NCBI GenBank assembly: GCA_016866775.1
Contig: VGLJ01000007.1
Coordinates: 1 to 64,000 of the forward strand
DNA length: 64,000 bases
Source: Candidatus Rokuibacteriota bacterium
GTDB taxonomy: Bacteria; Methylomirabilota; Methylomirabilia; Rokubacteriales; CSP1-6
Direction of reading: 5' to 3'
Shown: positions 12,134-17,542 of the stretch, in pieces
Layout of the letters: the number at the start of each line of letters is the position of its first letter
Numbering within the stretch: position 1 is the stretch's first letter
Notes under the pieces: model-generated
The model's database searches: none
What the model saw: the letters and a program-made list of their open reading frames with translations, nothing else
What the model was told of the DNA's origin: nothing
Translations under genes and position numbers: made by a program

Positions 12134-13345
12134 TCAATCGAGGCCGGCGCGGCGGCGGAGGAGAACGCCGATCGGCGTGCCGAGGAGCGCGCCGGCGAGC
12201 CAGAGCCAGCCGTGCAGGCTCGTCGATGCGATCCCGCTGAAGTACGCGCCGATGTTGCAGCCGAACGCGAGACGCGCGCCGTAGCCGAGCAGCAGTCCGC
12301 CCGCGAGCGCGATCGCGCCGCGCCGGACGGTGACGCGCCCGACGTGGAAGCGCCCGGCGAGCCCGGCGCCGAGCAGCGCGCCGAGCACGATCGCGGCGTC
12401 CATCATCGCCGTCTCGTCGGCGAACACGGACGCGGCGAGCGCGTCGGCCGGGAAGCCGTCGCTCCAGAAATCGATCGCGGCGACGTCGACGCCGAGCGCG
12501 CGCAGCGCCTTCGCGCCGGCGAGCGTGATGCCCCATGTGATCCCCCACGCGTGACCCGAGAGCACCACGACGACCGCGTTGAGTGCGGCGAGCGCGATCG
12601 CCCCGCCCGCGAGCGACCACGGGCCGTGCAGGAGACGCCGCCAGCCTCTCACCGGCGGCGCGACGGGCCGCACGTCGCCGAGCCGGCGCCGCTCCCACCG
12701 CTTCGCCACGAGCGCGATGACGCCGAACGCCGCGAGCTGGAGCGCGACCGCGGGGAGCCAGCCGAGCGCGTCACCGAGGCTGATCGGCCCGAGTGACGGC
12801 AGCCCGCGCCAGAGATCGGCGTGCAAGGTCGCGACGATCGATCCGGCGGCGAAGCCGACGAGCGCGACGATCATCGACGTGGCGCCGCCGCCGAGGTTGA
12901 AGAGGCAGCCGGACCCGCAGCCGCCCGCGAGCTGCATGCCGATGGCGAACACGGCGGCGCCGAGCAGGACGCCCACGCCGGCGGGCGCCACGGCGCCCGC
13001 GACCTCGGTGCCGAAGACCGTCCCCACGCTGAGCATCGGCGCGAAGAGCACCGTTGCGACCGCGAGCATCAGCATCTGCGCGCGCAGGCCGCGCGTGTCG
13101 CCGACGCTGGCGAACGCGCGGAACGCGGCGGTGAACCCGAACGCGGCGTGGTAGAGCACGAGGCCGAGCGCCCCGCCGACGAGGAACAGCGCCGCGTGCC
13201 GCCAGCCATACGGGCCCGCGAGGGCCGCCGCGCCCGGGAGCAGCAGCGCCAGCGCGATCGCGACGACGCGCGCCTGCACGCGCGGCGCGTACGGCGCCGT
13301 CGTCGTCGCGGGAAAGCCCGTGCGGTCCGTCGCCAGCCGGCTCAT
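12134..13345 (-). CDS. YeeE/YedE (TsuA-like) sulfur-compound membrane transporter
   Basis: 403 residues, almost all hydrophobic, about ten to twelve helices. The signature cysteine motifs AGGCGSGCLFNLGG and AFGCNIGAYFSGI match the YeeE/YedE family, whose studied member TsuA passes thiosulfate through the inner membrane using conserved cysteines. It is the last gene of a three-gene minus-strand operon (diiron protein, HugZ-like protein, transporter), with 4-base ATGA overlaps at each junction. A possible partner is the molybdoenzyme at 3.4-6.3 kb, if that enzyme handles sulfur oxyanions. Confidence 0.85.
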   Translation of the reverse strand: MSRLATDRTGFPATTTAPYAPRVQARVVAIALALLLPGAAALAGPYGWRHAALFLVGGALGLVLYHAAFGFTAAFRAFASVGDTRGLRAQMLMLAVATVLFAPMLSVGTVFGTEVAGAVAPAGVGVLLGAAVFAIGMQLAGGCGSGCLFNLGGGATSMIVALVGFAAGSIVATLHADLWRGLPSLGPISLGDALGWLPAVALQLAAFGVIALVAKRWERRRLGDVRPVAPPVRGWRRLLHGPWSLAGGAIALAALNAVVVVLSGHAWGITWGITLAGAKALRALGVDVAAIDFWSDGFPADALAASVFADETAMMDAAIVLGALLGAGLAGRFHVGRVTVRRGAIALAGGLLLGYGARLAFGCNIGAYFSGIASTSLHGWLWLAGALLGTPIGVLLRRRAGLD

Positions 13346-14130
13346 GCGCCGCCCTTCGCGCGCGCCTGCTGCAGCATCTCGATGAGGACCGTGCGGCTCT
13401 CGCCGGCCGTCGTCACCTCCCGCGGGAATGCGATCCGCACGCTGTGGCGCCGGTCGCCGTGCGTCACGCGCAGCTTGAACCCGAGCCGATCGACGCTCGT
13501 CATCACCGCCTCGTCGGCCTCGACATTGCCGAACACGCGCGCGTAGGCGACGAGCGCGTCGGCGTGGTCCTGATTCATGTGGGTGACGATGCCGCCCGCG
13601 ACGTCGGCGAGCGGATCCGGCTCGGCCGCCGCGTAGCCCGCCGCGGTCACCCAGTCCATCGCCGCGAAGCCGCCGACGAAGTACACGTCGGTGACGTCGA
13701 GCCGCCAGAACGCGAAGTCGTCGAAGTCGACCCAGTAGCGCGCGCTCTCGTGGCGCGCGAGGTACGCCGCGCGCGCGGCCGCGCGCGTGTCGGCGGCGAC
13801 CGGGCGCGCCTCGCCCATCAGCGTGACGCGTCCGGCGGCGAGCGGATCCCCCGCCCAGTCGGGCTGCGCCACCAGCAGGCTCGCGCGCGCGTCCCCCTGG
13901 AGGTTCTGCGTGTGCATCGCCATGGTGCTGATCAGCAGCAGCGGGTTACCGCGCGCGTCGACCGCGTACGGCATGATCGACGCGAAGGGGTGCCCGGGAT
14001 GGCGGCGCGAGAGCGTGGCGAGCGTGCCCGCGCGTCCGAGATGCACGAGCGTGCGCGCGCGCTCCGCGTACGTGGGCTCGGGAACGGGCGGCGTATCGGA
14101 CGGGGATGCGGGACCGGCGTGGCGGTTCAC
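13342..14130 (-). CDS. HugZ-like protein (PNPOx-type flavin/haem domain plus DUF2470)
   Basis: 262 residues. Residues ~20-165 resemble the split-barrel domain of pyridoxamine-phosphate-oxidase-like proteins (ARTLVHLGRAGTLATLS, HPFASIMPYAVDARGNPLLLIS, W.VDFDDFAFWRLDV). The C-terminal ~85 residues (GGIVTHMNQDHADALVAYAR...MTSVDRLGFKLRV) are the DUF2470 segment found in HugZ haem oxygenases and in plant glutamyl-tRNA reductase-binding proteins. Haem binding is plausible through H-x-N-Q-D-H. It overlaps both neighbours by 4 bases. Confidence 0.8.
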   Translation of the reverse strand: MNRHAGPASPSDTPPVPEPTYAERARTLVHLGRAGTLATLSRRHPGHPFASIMPYAVDARGNPLLLISTMAMHTQNLQGDARASLLVAQPDWAGDPLAAGRVTLMGEARPVAADTRAAARAAYLARHESARYWVDFDDFAFWRLDVTDVYFVGGFAAMDWVTAAGYAAAEPDPLADVAGGIVTHMNQDHADALVAYARVFGNVEADEAVMTSVDRLGFKLRVTHGDRRHSVRIAFPREVTTAGESRTVLIEMLQQARAKGGA

Positions 14131-15191
14131 AACGACGACTGCTGCCGGACGAACCGGGTGGCGTCGAACTCCTCGGCCACGCGCTGATCGTTCTCGAGCA
14201 GGGCCTGCGCGTCGACCGTCGCGAACTCGATCGCGCCCATGTCGTCGAACGCCTTTCGCACGCGCGGCCCCCAGAGCCCGATGTCCTTCACGGTCGGCAC
14301 GATGCGGCTGAAGAGCCGCTTACGGAACATCGCCATCTGCTGCGAGCTCATCGCGGCCTCGATCGCTTCCTTCACCGGTAGCCCGAGGTTCTCCCACAGC
14401 TCCTTCTGGTTGAAGCGGTCACGCATCTGGTAGCAGGCTTCGACCACGAACTCCTCGCGCTCGTCGCGCTCCGCGTCGGTGAGCTGCGGATAGTAGTCGC
14501 GCAGCGCGAGCCGGCCGAAGGCCACGTGGCGCGCCTCGTCCTGCATCACGTAGGCGTTCACCGACGCGGCGAGCCGGTTCTTCGCCTGGTCCCGGATGCG
14601 CTGGAAGGCGGCGAGCGCCAGGCCTTCGATCAGCACCTGCATGCCGAGGTACGTCATGTCCCAGCGACGGTCGGTGAGCACGACCTCGAGCAGCGCCTTC
14701 AGTCCCGGAGTGATCGGGTAGGCGAGGCCGAGCTTGTCGTGAAGGAGGCGCGCGTACGCCTCGACGTGCCGCGCCTCGTCCATGACCTGCGTGGCCGCGT
14801 AGAACTTCGCGTCGAGGTCCGGCACGGTCTGGACGATCCGGGCCGCGGCCATGAGCGCGCCCTGCTCGCCGTGCATGAACTGGGACAGCGACTGCGCCTG
14901 CTGGTGGTGACGGAGCTTGACCCGCTCTTGCTTCGTCATCCGGTCCCACAGCGCGGAGCCGAAGATCGGGATCGCGCGGTCGTCGAGCTCCTGCGGGTTC
15001 TCGGGATCGAGATCGATCGACCAGTCGATCCGCTCGGCCGCGTCCCATTGCTGCTTCTTGCCCTTGTCGTAGAGCGCCAGGAGCTTCTCGCGCTCGTCCT
15101 CGTACTCCCACGTGAACGACGTCTGGGTCTCCCCCTGGAGGGTCCACTGCGTCTGCTCGACCGGCAGCTGGTAGCGGTACATGGTCGCCAT
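14127..15191 (-). CDS. Ferritin-like diiron protein (R2/AurF-type fold)
   Basis: 354 residues. Diiron ligands are visible as two carboxylate-helix motifs: E in HGEQGALMAAARIV with DEARHVEAYARLL, then E in LIEGLALAAFQ with DEARHVAFGRLAL. This E...ExxH repeat binds two irons and activates oxygen in ribonucleotide reductase R2-like oxidases and AurF-type N-oxygenases. The substrate is unknown. A much longer open frame upstream is ignored because GAGGAG lies just before the ATG at 15191 and conservation begins there. It is the first gene of an operon with the HugZ-like and YeeE genes. Confidence 0.8.
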   Translation of the reverse strand: MATMYRYQLPVEQTQWTLQGETQTSFTWEYEDEREKLLALYDKGKKQQWDAAERIDWSIDLDPENPQELDDRAIPIFGSALWDRMTKQERVKLRHHQQAQSLSQFMHGEQGALMAAARIVQTVPDLDAKFYAATQVMDEARHVEAYARLLHDKLGLAYPITPGLKALLEVVLTDRRWDMTYLGMQVLIEGLALAAFQRIRDQAKNRLAASVNAYVMQDEARHVAFGRLALRDYYPQLTDAERDEREEFVVEACYQMRDRFNQKELWENLGLPVKEAIEAAMSSQQMAMFRKRLFSRIVPTVKDIGLWGPRVRKAFDDMGAIEFATVDAQALLENDQRVAEEFDATRFVRQQSSL

Positions 15192-15405: not shown

Positions 15406-16056
15406 ATGACCCTCAAAGAGACGCTCGACGGGATGAGAGCCGCCAGCAAGGCGCGCATTCCCCCGGAGACCCAGGCCGTCATGCAGCGAGCCATCGAGGA
15501 CGTTCGGGCCTCGGGCATCCTGGACCGCGTGGTCAAGACCGGGCAACGCGCGCCGGACTTCACGCTGCCGAACACCGAGGGGCACGAGACCAGCCTCTCG
15601 ACTCTTCTGGGCAAGGGCCCCGTGGTTCTGAGCTTCTTTCGAGGTCGCTGGTGACCGTACTGCAATGCAGAGCTGGCAGCTCTGCAGGCCGCGCTTCCGG
15701 CGATCGCCGCGACCGGCGCGAGTCTCGTGGTCATCTCGCCGCAGGTTCAACGTAGTCGACGCGAGACCGGCAACGAGCCCGCGGTGACGTTCGAGGTGCT
15801 GCGTGACCGCGGCAACGAAGTCGCGCGGCGCCACGGCATCGTCCACGAGCTCCCCGACGACCTCCGGGAGACCTACGGCAAGTTCAACATCGATCTCCCC
15901 GCGATCAACGGCGACGGCACCTGGACCCTGCCCATGCCCGCCCGCTTCGTGATCGATCGCGCGGGCATCGTACGTTCGGTGGACGCCGACCCGGACTACA
16001 CGCAGCGGCCCGAGCCCGACGCCACCGTGGCGGTGCTCCGCGGCCTGGGCGCATAG
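15406..16056 (+). CDS. Peroxiredoxin-like (AhpC/TSA) selenoprotein, Sec83
   Basis: 216 residues if the TGA at 15652-15654 is read as selenocysteine. Frame and family match continue through it: FFRGRW-U-PYCNAELAALQ, where relatives have FYRGxWCPYCNxEL. Sec83 replaces the catalytic cysteine and C86 gives a U-x-x-C redox pair. The upstream part (RAPDFTLPNTEG..SLSTLLGKGPVVLSF) and downstream part (LVVISPQ, YGKFNIDLP, ARFVIDRAGIVRS) form a complete thioredoxin fold. GGAGGAA precedes the ATG. A hairpin lies directly after the UGA. It likely reduces peroxides. It converges with the AhpD-like selenoprotein gene. Confidence 0.9.
15666..15686 (+). promoter_or_regulatory. Bacterial SECIS-like hairpin of the peroxiredoxin-like gene
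   Basis: A perfect 9-bp stem (TGCAGAGCT with AGCTCTGCA) carries a GGC loop. Exactly 20 bases lie between the UGA and the first loop base, and the loop opens with G. Both fit the bacterial SECIS rule (apical loop about 16-37 nt after UGA, G in the first two loop positions) for SelB-dependent insertion. The stem also encodes part of the conserved helix after UxxC. Confidence 0.75.
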
Positions 16057-16117
16057 GCGCGACTCCTTCGTCTTCGCGCCGGCTGCGCAGGGGTTCTTCG
16101 CCGCGCAGTCCTGAGCC

Positions 16118-16918
16118 TCACTGCGGAGGACGGATGTCCGACTCGATCTGCATGCCCTCGGAGAGCGTGTTCAAGGTCGTGTAGTGGTCGACGACGCCGA
16201 GCACCTCCAGAAGGTCCTGATCGGTATCGCCGGCGTGGCGCAGGATCTCCGCGTGGTGGTCGATCATGTACCGGCCGCGCCCGGCCATCGACACGCCGAG
16301 CGCGGTGCGCCGCTTGTCACGCGCGGAAAGGGCACCGTCGCTCATCAACGCGCGGTCCTTCCGCCAGGTCGCTTCGAGGTAGTGCGGGTTGCGCGCCAGG
16401 ATCCGCCAGAGCACCGGGACGTCGGCCACGCCGCTCGCGGTGCGCCACCATGCCGCGATCTCGTCGAGGAGCACGCGCACGGTGCCGTCGCTCTCTTTGA
16501 CCTCGATCGGCGCGATCAACGGCGAGCCTCGCGTGTCGAGGCCGAGCGCACCCGCCGTCGTCGCCATGGCTTTCGCGTGCTCCGTGACGCCCATCACCTC
16601 CGTCACGCCCGTTTCGTCGACACCGAGCCGCATCACGGCGGCGACGTGGGAGTCGATTCAGTAGTGGCACGCGTTCGCGACCGAGACGGCCGTGGCGATC
16701 AGCTCGCGCTGAAGCGGTGTGAACCGGCCACGCTGCATCAGCGCGCGCGAGCGGTTCCAGTTGGACTCGAGCAGGGCCGGCAGGTGCCCCATGCATCGCC
16801 AGATGTTCGACACGCTGGTGGCGCCGAAGACGCGCTGCTCGCGCGCGAGGATGGCGTCGAAGATCTCGCGCGTCTTCCCGGCCGCGCGGTCGGGATCGGG
16901 CAGTGGGATCGTCGTCAC
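16118..16918 (-). CDS. AhpD/carboxymuconolactone-decarboxylase-like selenoprotein, Sec87
   Basis: 266 residues if the TGA at 16660-16658 is selenocysteine. The active motif reads ANACHY-U-IDSH, so the family C-x-x-C-x3-H becomes C84-x-x-U87-x3-H91. The frame is unbroken to a stop at 16118. The protein is a tandem of two AhpD-like halves; the second keeps the helix pattern (RTALGVSMAGRGRYMIDHHAEILR) but has lost both catalytic cysteines. AhpD proteins supply electrons to peroxiredoxins, which fits the neighbour. Start ATG at 16918, divergent from the OsmC-like selenoprotein gene. Confidence 0.88.
16627..16642 (-). promoter_or_regulatory. SECIS-like hairpin of the AhpD-like gene
   Basis: GCCGC pairs with GCGGC around a six-base loop CGTGAT. 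A CAC/GTG pair outside a small internal loop extends the stem. The first loop base follows the UGA by 20 bases and the second loop base is G. This is the weakest of the three hairpins on stem length, but its position matches the other two exactly. Confidence 0.5.
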
Positions 16919-17032
16919 GACGCTCCTCCCGTCATCCCCGGCACCATATCACCGGCGCCGGGTGTATCGTCCTGATGCGAGACCTCGCGGAGGCCGCGAC
17001 GGTGGGCCGAAGGGGGCTCGGAAAGGACACGC

Positions 17033-17542
17033 ATGGCGGATCAGGTGCCGGAAGGATTGAATCCCTCGGTCGAGAGCCGGCAGATCACGTTCGAGGCCGA
17101 TGTGAGCTCCGTGACGCCGTTCCTGAAGCTTGCCACCGCGCACAGGAACGGCGGCGGTCACATGACGTTCGCCTGCGACGAGGGCCCGAATCTCGGCGGC
17201 CTCGGCTCGGCGCCGACCCCGCTCATGTACTTCAGCGCCGCGCTCGCGTTCTGACTGATGACCCAGGTGTCCCGGTACGGGCACATGCTGAAGGTCGACG
17301 TGACGCGTATGACGATGCACGTGACGGCGCGGTTCAGGGTCGAAGGCTCGGTGCTCAAGGACACGATCCAGGGGGAGATGCTTGGGGCCGAGACGACGCT
17401 GGAGCTGGAGTCTCAGGCCGAGCCGGAGCGTGTCGCACGGGTGATCCGCAACGCCGAGCGCGGGTGCTTCGTCATGCAAGCGCTGCTCCGCCCGGTCGCG
17501 GTCACGACGCGGTCGCTGCTCAACGGCCGTCCGCTGTCCTGA
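17033..17542 (+). CDS. OsmC-like selenoprotein, Sec74
   Basis: 169 residues if the TGA at 17252-17254 is selenocysteine. The motif is PTPLMYFSAALAF-U-LMTQVSRY, where OsmC/Ohr relatives have FSAALAxCLMT with the peroxidatic cysteine. The resolving cysteine survives as C145 in NAERGCFVMQALLRP. The N-terminal part (FEADVSSVT...HMTFACDEGPNLGGLGSAPTP) and C-terminal part (MTMHVTARFRVEGSVL) complete the fold. Start ATG at 17033 with GGAAAGGA upstream. OsmC family proteins reduce organic hydroperoxides, usually with lipoyl or thiol partners. The stop lies 6 bases before a convergent helicase gene. Confidence 0.88.
17267..17284 (+). promoter_or_regulatory. SECIS-like hairpin with bulged T of the OsmC-like gene
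   Basis: GTG pairs with CAC and CCCG pairs with CGGG, enclosing a GTA loop. A single T at 17270 bulges from the 5' side, as does the functionally important bulged U of the E. coli fdhF SECIS. The first loop base comes 20 bases after the UGA and is a G. Confidence 0.7.

Follow-up and report, generated by a model that had tools for sequence, protein, structure and literature searches.

Whether an in-frame UGA in each of three neighbouring redox-protein genes is read as selenocysteine (Sec), and whether these genes belong to one functional unit, is the question raised by a locus of a member of the Rokubacteria from soil or groundwater. The locus lies in a 64-kb stretch of DNA, here called the window, whose closest named contigs are Candidatus Rokubacteria MAGs. 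An earlier note, made from the letters alone, had described a cluster of peroxiredoxin-like (Prx-like), AhpD-like and OsmC-like selenoproteins and had proposed a dedicated Sec-based peroxide-defence module in which the AhpD-like protein supplies electrons to the peroxidases. The present analysis supports, with high confidence, the reading of all three as genuine selenoprotein genes of a Rokubacteriales bacterium, with an AhpD neighbourhood specific to this genome and a Prx/OsmC association that elsewhere recurs as a bicistron. They add new members to selenoprotein families already described, a well-supported new instance and no new kind of system, and they leave the known picture of Sec use unchanged. 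The features concerned are:

15406-16056, plus strand: gene for a Prx-like selenoprotein of 216 aa with the AhpC/TSA fold and the UxxC motif RGRW-U-PYC
15652-15654, plus strand: Sec-UGA codon U83 of the Prx-like gene, UGA in 28/28 orthologues
15666-15686, plus strand: SECIS-like hairpin of the Prx-like gene, 9-bp stem, loop GGC, loop start +20 nt from the UGA
16118-16918, minus strand: gene for a CMD/AhpD-like selenoprotein of 266 aa with two domains, the N-terminal one carrying CHYU (CxxU)
16658-16660, minus strand: Sec-UGA codon U87 of the AhpD-like gene, UGA in 4/4 close orthologues
16627-16642, minus strand: SECIS-like hairpin of the AhpD-like gene, 5-bp stem, loop CGTGAT, loop start +20 nt
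17033-17542, plus strand: gene for an OsmC-like selenoprotein of 169 aa with the UxxT motif ULMT and a second conserved Cys, C145 (GCF)
17252-17254, plus strand: Sec-UGA codon U74 of the OsmC-like gene, UGA in 23/23 homologues
17267-17284, plus strand: SECIS-like hairpin of the OsmC-like gene, GUG-(bulged U)-CCCG / loop GUA / CGGG-CAC, loop start +20 nt

Reading frames, Sec machinery and conservation of the UGA

Each of the three genes contains a single in-frame UGA, with the frame open both 5' and 3' of it, and an SD-like sequence precedes each start (GGAGGA immediately 5' of the Prx-like ATG). Pfam matches span all three codons (AhpC-TSA, 5.7e-28; CMD, 8.7e-23; OsmC, 1.6e-14), bearing out the earlier claim that coding similarity continues on both sides of the UGA. 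When coding-like frames interrupted by a single UGA were sought in all six frames of the window, these genes were the only convincing cases. The genome to which the window belongs (97.5% complete) encodes the full Sec machinery for which a search had been proposed, namely tRNA-Sec (70 bits; called by ARAGORN as SeC with anticodon tca), SelA (592 bits), SelB (381 bits) and SelD (336 bits), the three proteins all exceeding curated cut-offs. SelA, SelB and tRNA-Sec are found side by side on contig C43 and SelD on another contig, and SelB is present in 53 of the 60 genomes of the order. The SelD gene (L019, 1501-2445) is itself a predicted selenoprotein gene, having one UGA near the N-terminus and an 8-bp hairpin with its loop at +21, and further Sec genes of the same genome encode a Prx-like protein with UPFC (L129, G000:C25; loop at +24) and a CMD protein with CEYU (L130, G000:C8; loop at +20).

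The UGA was followed through orthologues from members of the order and one Tectomicrobia genome. It was present in all 28 Prx-like orthologues (50-69% identity), all 23 OsmC-like homologues (39-81% identity, including the Tectomicrobia homologue at 61%) and all 4 close AhpD-like orthologues (62-73% identity apart from the window's own copy), a conservation that is decisive for the observation. No Cys form was found at the UGA position among the Prx, OsmC and close AhpD orthologues at these identities; more distant CMD relatives have CxxU in many cases and CxxC in two.

It is extremely improbable that the codons are ordinary stops in broken genes or sequencing errors, a reading rejected because the same UGA is kept in all orthologues from tens of independently assembled genomes with the protein conserved on both sides, because codon choice 3' of it is constrained to keep a hairpin (see below) and because the Sec machinery is complete; that UGA is a working stop here, terminating both the AhpD-like and the OsmC-like genes, lends it no specific support. 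The statement that these are not chance stops thus holds. Reassignment of UGA, or its readthrough as Trp or another ordinary residue, would agree with the open frames and has next to no probability, as UGA ends genes in this genome, is internal only at redox sites where the homologous residue is Cys, is conserved in all orthologues, and is followed by a hairpin only when internal, the terminal UGA stops of the AhpD-like and OsmC-like genes being without one. From the machinery, the conserved UGA and the conserved hairpin, we infer that SelB with Sec-tRNA would bind the hairpin just 3' of each UGA and that selenocysteine would be inserted there. Ordinary gene callers would cut all three genes at the UGA, leading to mis-annotated selenoproteins in uncultured soil and groundwater bacteria.

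Hairpins downstream of the UGA codons

The hairpin geometry was as first described, with loops starting exactly 20 nt from the UGA and a G at loop position 1 or 2 in all three genes, and with a single bulged U in the OsmC hairpin (4 bp, bulged U, 3 bp), a bulge seen in OsmC only. The OsmC element has the same stem, bulged U, stem and small G-starting loop right after the UGA as the SECIS of E. coli fdhF, in which the loop lies at +18 instead of +20. Folding of 54-nt segments gave -20.1 (Prx), -17.8 (AhpD) and -16.4 (OsmC) kcal/mol, and a search of Rfam gave no match for the three hairpins. Of the 1396 TGA triplets of the window, 0.07% are followed at exactly +20 by an uninterrupted stem as long as 9 bp, 3% by one of 5 bp and 5.8% by one of 4 bp, so that the AhpD and OsmC hairpins alone are weak evidence. 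For the window's AhpD sequence, the lowest-energy fold lacks the loop at +20 and has one elsewhere, whereas the +20 loop appears in the lowest-energy fold of two of the three close orthologues and of all 15 more distant Sec-CMD homologues.

Comparison across orthologues argues strongly for the hairpins. The lowest-energy fold places the loop at +19/+20 in 96% of the sequences for Prx and likewise for OsmC, and in 100% for the 15 distant Sec-CMD homologues, compared with 11%, 38% and 17%, respectively, in synonymous recodings (200 recodings with background codon usage served as the null for the stem tests). The mean stem at loop offsets 19-21 was 7.9 in real against 2.3 in recoded sequences for Prx, 4.4 against 2.4 for OsmC and 6.5 against 2.7 for Sec-CMD, all above the maxima reached over the 200 recodings (3.0, 3.0 and 3.6, respectively). 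The four close AhpD sequences alone did not clear this null, their mean stem of 5.75 equalling the null maximum of 5.75. Codon choice is correspondingly skewed, an Ala of Prx being GCT in 28/28 sequences (background 4%) and a Gly of the CMD homologues being GGG in 15/15 (background 2%). Compensatory changes were observed from C-G to U-A in 8 Prx sequences and from A-U to C-G in 4 CMD sequences, counts that reflect relatedness and are not independent events, and the two compensatory pairs in OsmC both come from one distant sequence. The covariation score was reached by 0/500 shuffles for Prx, 0/500 for CMD and 1/500 for OsmC. Together, these synonymous-codon and covariation tests add comparative evidence for SECIS elements in Rokubacteria, and the selenoprotein identity, the SECIS-like hairpins and the +20 loop position common to the three genes are strongly supported. 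The +20 register is common and not universal, since the second CMD gene of the genome has its loop at +20 and the second Prx-like gene at +24. A divergent OsmC gene (L046, G043:C177; 39% identity) has the UGA followed by a different perfect hairpin, GUCGCG/GUA/CGCGAC, in the same +20 register.

Active-site positions and protein families

All three types of protein, i.e. Prx-like with UxxC, AhpD-like and CMD with CxxU, and OsmC-like with UxxT, were catalogued as selenoproteins from the Sargasso Sea in 2005 (PMC1088965), and the same families are listed in a 2026 review (PMC13188914). The alignment with Cys homologues that had been called for places Sec opposite Cys in the solved structures of OsmC (3cje), AhpD (2ouw) and a thioredoxin-like protein (3hdc). 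The claim that each UGA is at the family's catalytic Cys therefore stands for OsmC and AhpD and fails for Prx, where Sec replaces the leading Cys of a CxxC of thioredoxin type and so lies three residues ahead of the canonical peroxiredoxin Cys.

In OsmC, U74 aligns with the first Cys of 3cje and the second Cys (C145) is also retained; the protein scores 165.4 bits against the cut-off of 95 for the NCBIfam model NF041052, 'OsmC-related (seleno)protein'. Common to it and that family (PMC1088965) are the motif ULMT (UxxT), the placing of Sec where the first catalytic Cys would be, and the kept second Cys; nothing essential differs apart from another host phylum and the fixed +20 loop. The protein is most likely a thiol-dependent hydroperoxide reductase, with U74 attacking and C145 resolving. 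In the AhpD-like protein, U87 aligns with the second Cys of the 2ouw CxxC, and scores are above cut-off for PF02627 (80.6 against 23) and TIGR00778 (48.3 against 27.8) and below the curated cut-off for TIGR01926, peroxidase-related and AhpD-like (64.7 against 81.8 bits). The CMD domain with CxxU is that of AhpD-like/CMD-like selenoproteins (PMC1088965, PMC13188914), from which this protein differs in its two domains, the second lacking the motif, and in its TIGR01926 score. Its C-H-Y-U residues probably act as a pair, as in AhpD/CMD peroxidase-related proteins. The second CMD domain (16118-16400, minus strand) has AGRGRYMIDHH in place of a CxxC and keeps the fold match, as a pseudo-repeat leaving one active site.

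In 3hdc, the residue matching U83 of the Prx-like protein is the first Cys of CPYC, whereas in the peroxiredoxins 2cx3 and 2ywn U83 lies opposite a Ser/Thr three residues before the peroxidatic Cys, the place of which is occupied by C86. The protein matches PF00578 (97.8 against 26 bits) and has the UxxC motif as UPYC, and lacks Sec or Cys at the TxxC position of canonical (2-Cys/1-Cys/PrxQ) peroxiredoxins. The position of U83 thus identifies a Prx-like thiol:disulfide oxidoreductase, sharing the AhpC-TSA fold and UxxC of the selenoproteins described under that name (PMC1088965, PMC13188914), and not a canonical Sec-peroxiredoxin (TxxU), from which it differs. Most likely it is a thiol:disulfide oxidoreductase or a Trx-like peroxidase that works through a U-P-Y-C pair. 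The functions given here for the three proteins are proposed from family and alignment, and several hydroperoxide-related roles are possible.

Gene neighbourhood and a possible functional unit

The AhpD-like gene is antisense to the other two, convergent with Prx-like and divergent from OsmC-like, so the three genes cannot be one operon; the same-strand, co-directional arrangement of a selenoprotein operon is absent from the window, and a three-gene operon was rejected on this ground and because AhpD is not a neighbour in other genomes. Of 95 genomes of the phylum, four have a close AhpD orthologue, which adjoins Prx or OsmC only in this one and lies elsewhere in the three others. Of the cluster first described, the adjacency and the single UGA in each gene stand. 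Operons of Prx-like with AhpD-like selenoproteins have been mentioned (PMC13188914), and two of the three partners are side by side here too, but they are encoded on opposite strands, and in Rokubacteria it is OsmC that recurs as the partner of Prx-like.

In two sister genera, eight genomes have the Prx-like and OsmC genes next to each other on the same strand. The junction is readable in seven: the genes overlap by ATGA in three genomes, are 9 nt apart in another three and 49 nt apart in the remaining one:

L027, L029, L031, L035, L037, L038, L045: tight Prx-like/OsmC bicistron loci of the sister genera

At the eighth locus (L127, 7596-8171; G018:C351), the N-terminal part of Prx runs straight into the C-terminal part of OsmC, a fused remnant as after deletion or misassembly. 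No paper describing the Prx-OsmC pair was found in the literature searched, the coverage of which is incomplete. Around OsmC in 15 named contigs, Prx is the only recurrent redox partner, other recurring genes being confined to close relatives with the bicistron. In partly resolved gene trees, the window's Prx (G000) groups with that of G010 and its OsmC with that of G006, both outside the bicistron clade, and neither of these genomes has the pair. The proximity thus seems to have arisen separately in G000, apparently more than once overall, and the view that the window holds a sister bicistron interrupted by AhpD was rejected on the same groupings.

On balance, it is somewhat probable that the selenoproteins are real and that chance, in a genome rich in such genes, brought the three together, with at most the closeness of Prx and OsmC being functional. 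Methylomirabilota are reported to be extremely selenoprotein-rich, one MAG having 63 predicted selenoproteins (PMC13188914), a density at which about 0.8 adjacent Sec pairs would be expected by chance; the placement of AhpD is unique to this genome, and it also fits that neither the Prx nor the OsmC of the window falls within the bicistron clade. Against chance, proximity of Prx and OsmC is seen at least twice, and 17 of 24 OsmC genomes also have Prx, beyond expectation (Fisher p 0.002, with the kinship of the genomes ignored). The recurrence of the pair suggests a testable functional link. More tentatively, and with rather low probability, Rokubacteria may possess a recurrent unit of Prx-like UxxC and OsmC UxxT proteins, with coupled translation in some genera, re-assembled here independently with a third selenoenzyme, of AhpD type, and acting jointly on organic hydroperoxides.

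A single Sec hydroperoxide-defence module of all three, in which AhpD would pass electrons to the other two proteins, is doubtful. Three adjacent Sec genes would speak for it, about 0.01 such triples being expected by chance even at 63 selenoproteins per genome (for one post hoc case), as would the bicistron of the sister genera and the divergent AhpD and OsmC genes, whose starts are ~114 bp apart and would allow shared control. Yet AhpD is antisense, rare and not a neighbour of the others elsewhere, OsmC or Prx is often found without the other, and a promoter/terminator scan found no regulator or common promoter. The Sec of the Prx-like protein, moreover, is in a UxxC thiol-disulfide-oxidoreductase context and off the peroxidatic TxxU position. 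The dedicated module with an AhpD electron donor was accordingly not upheld. Just upstream of the selenoprotein genes, three genes lie consecutively on the minus strand: an AurF-like diiron N-oxygenase family gene (14127-15191), a HugZ-like (CREG/DUF2470) gene (13342-14130) and, 2 kb from the selenoprotein genes, a YeeE/YedE-type sulfur transporter gene (PF04143; 12134-13345), which matches the selenium-linked YedE/FdhT model only weakly and in part (108 against a cut-off of 350).
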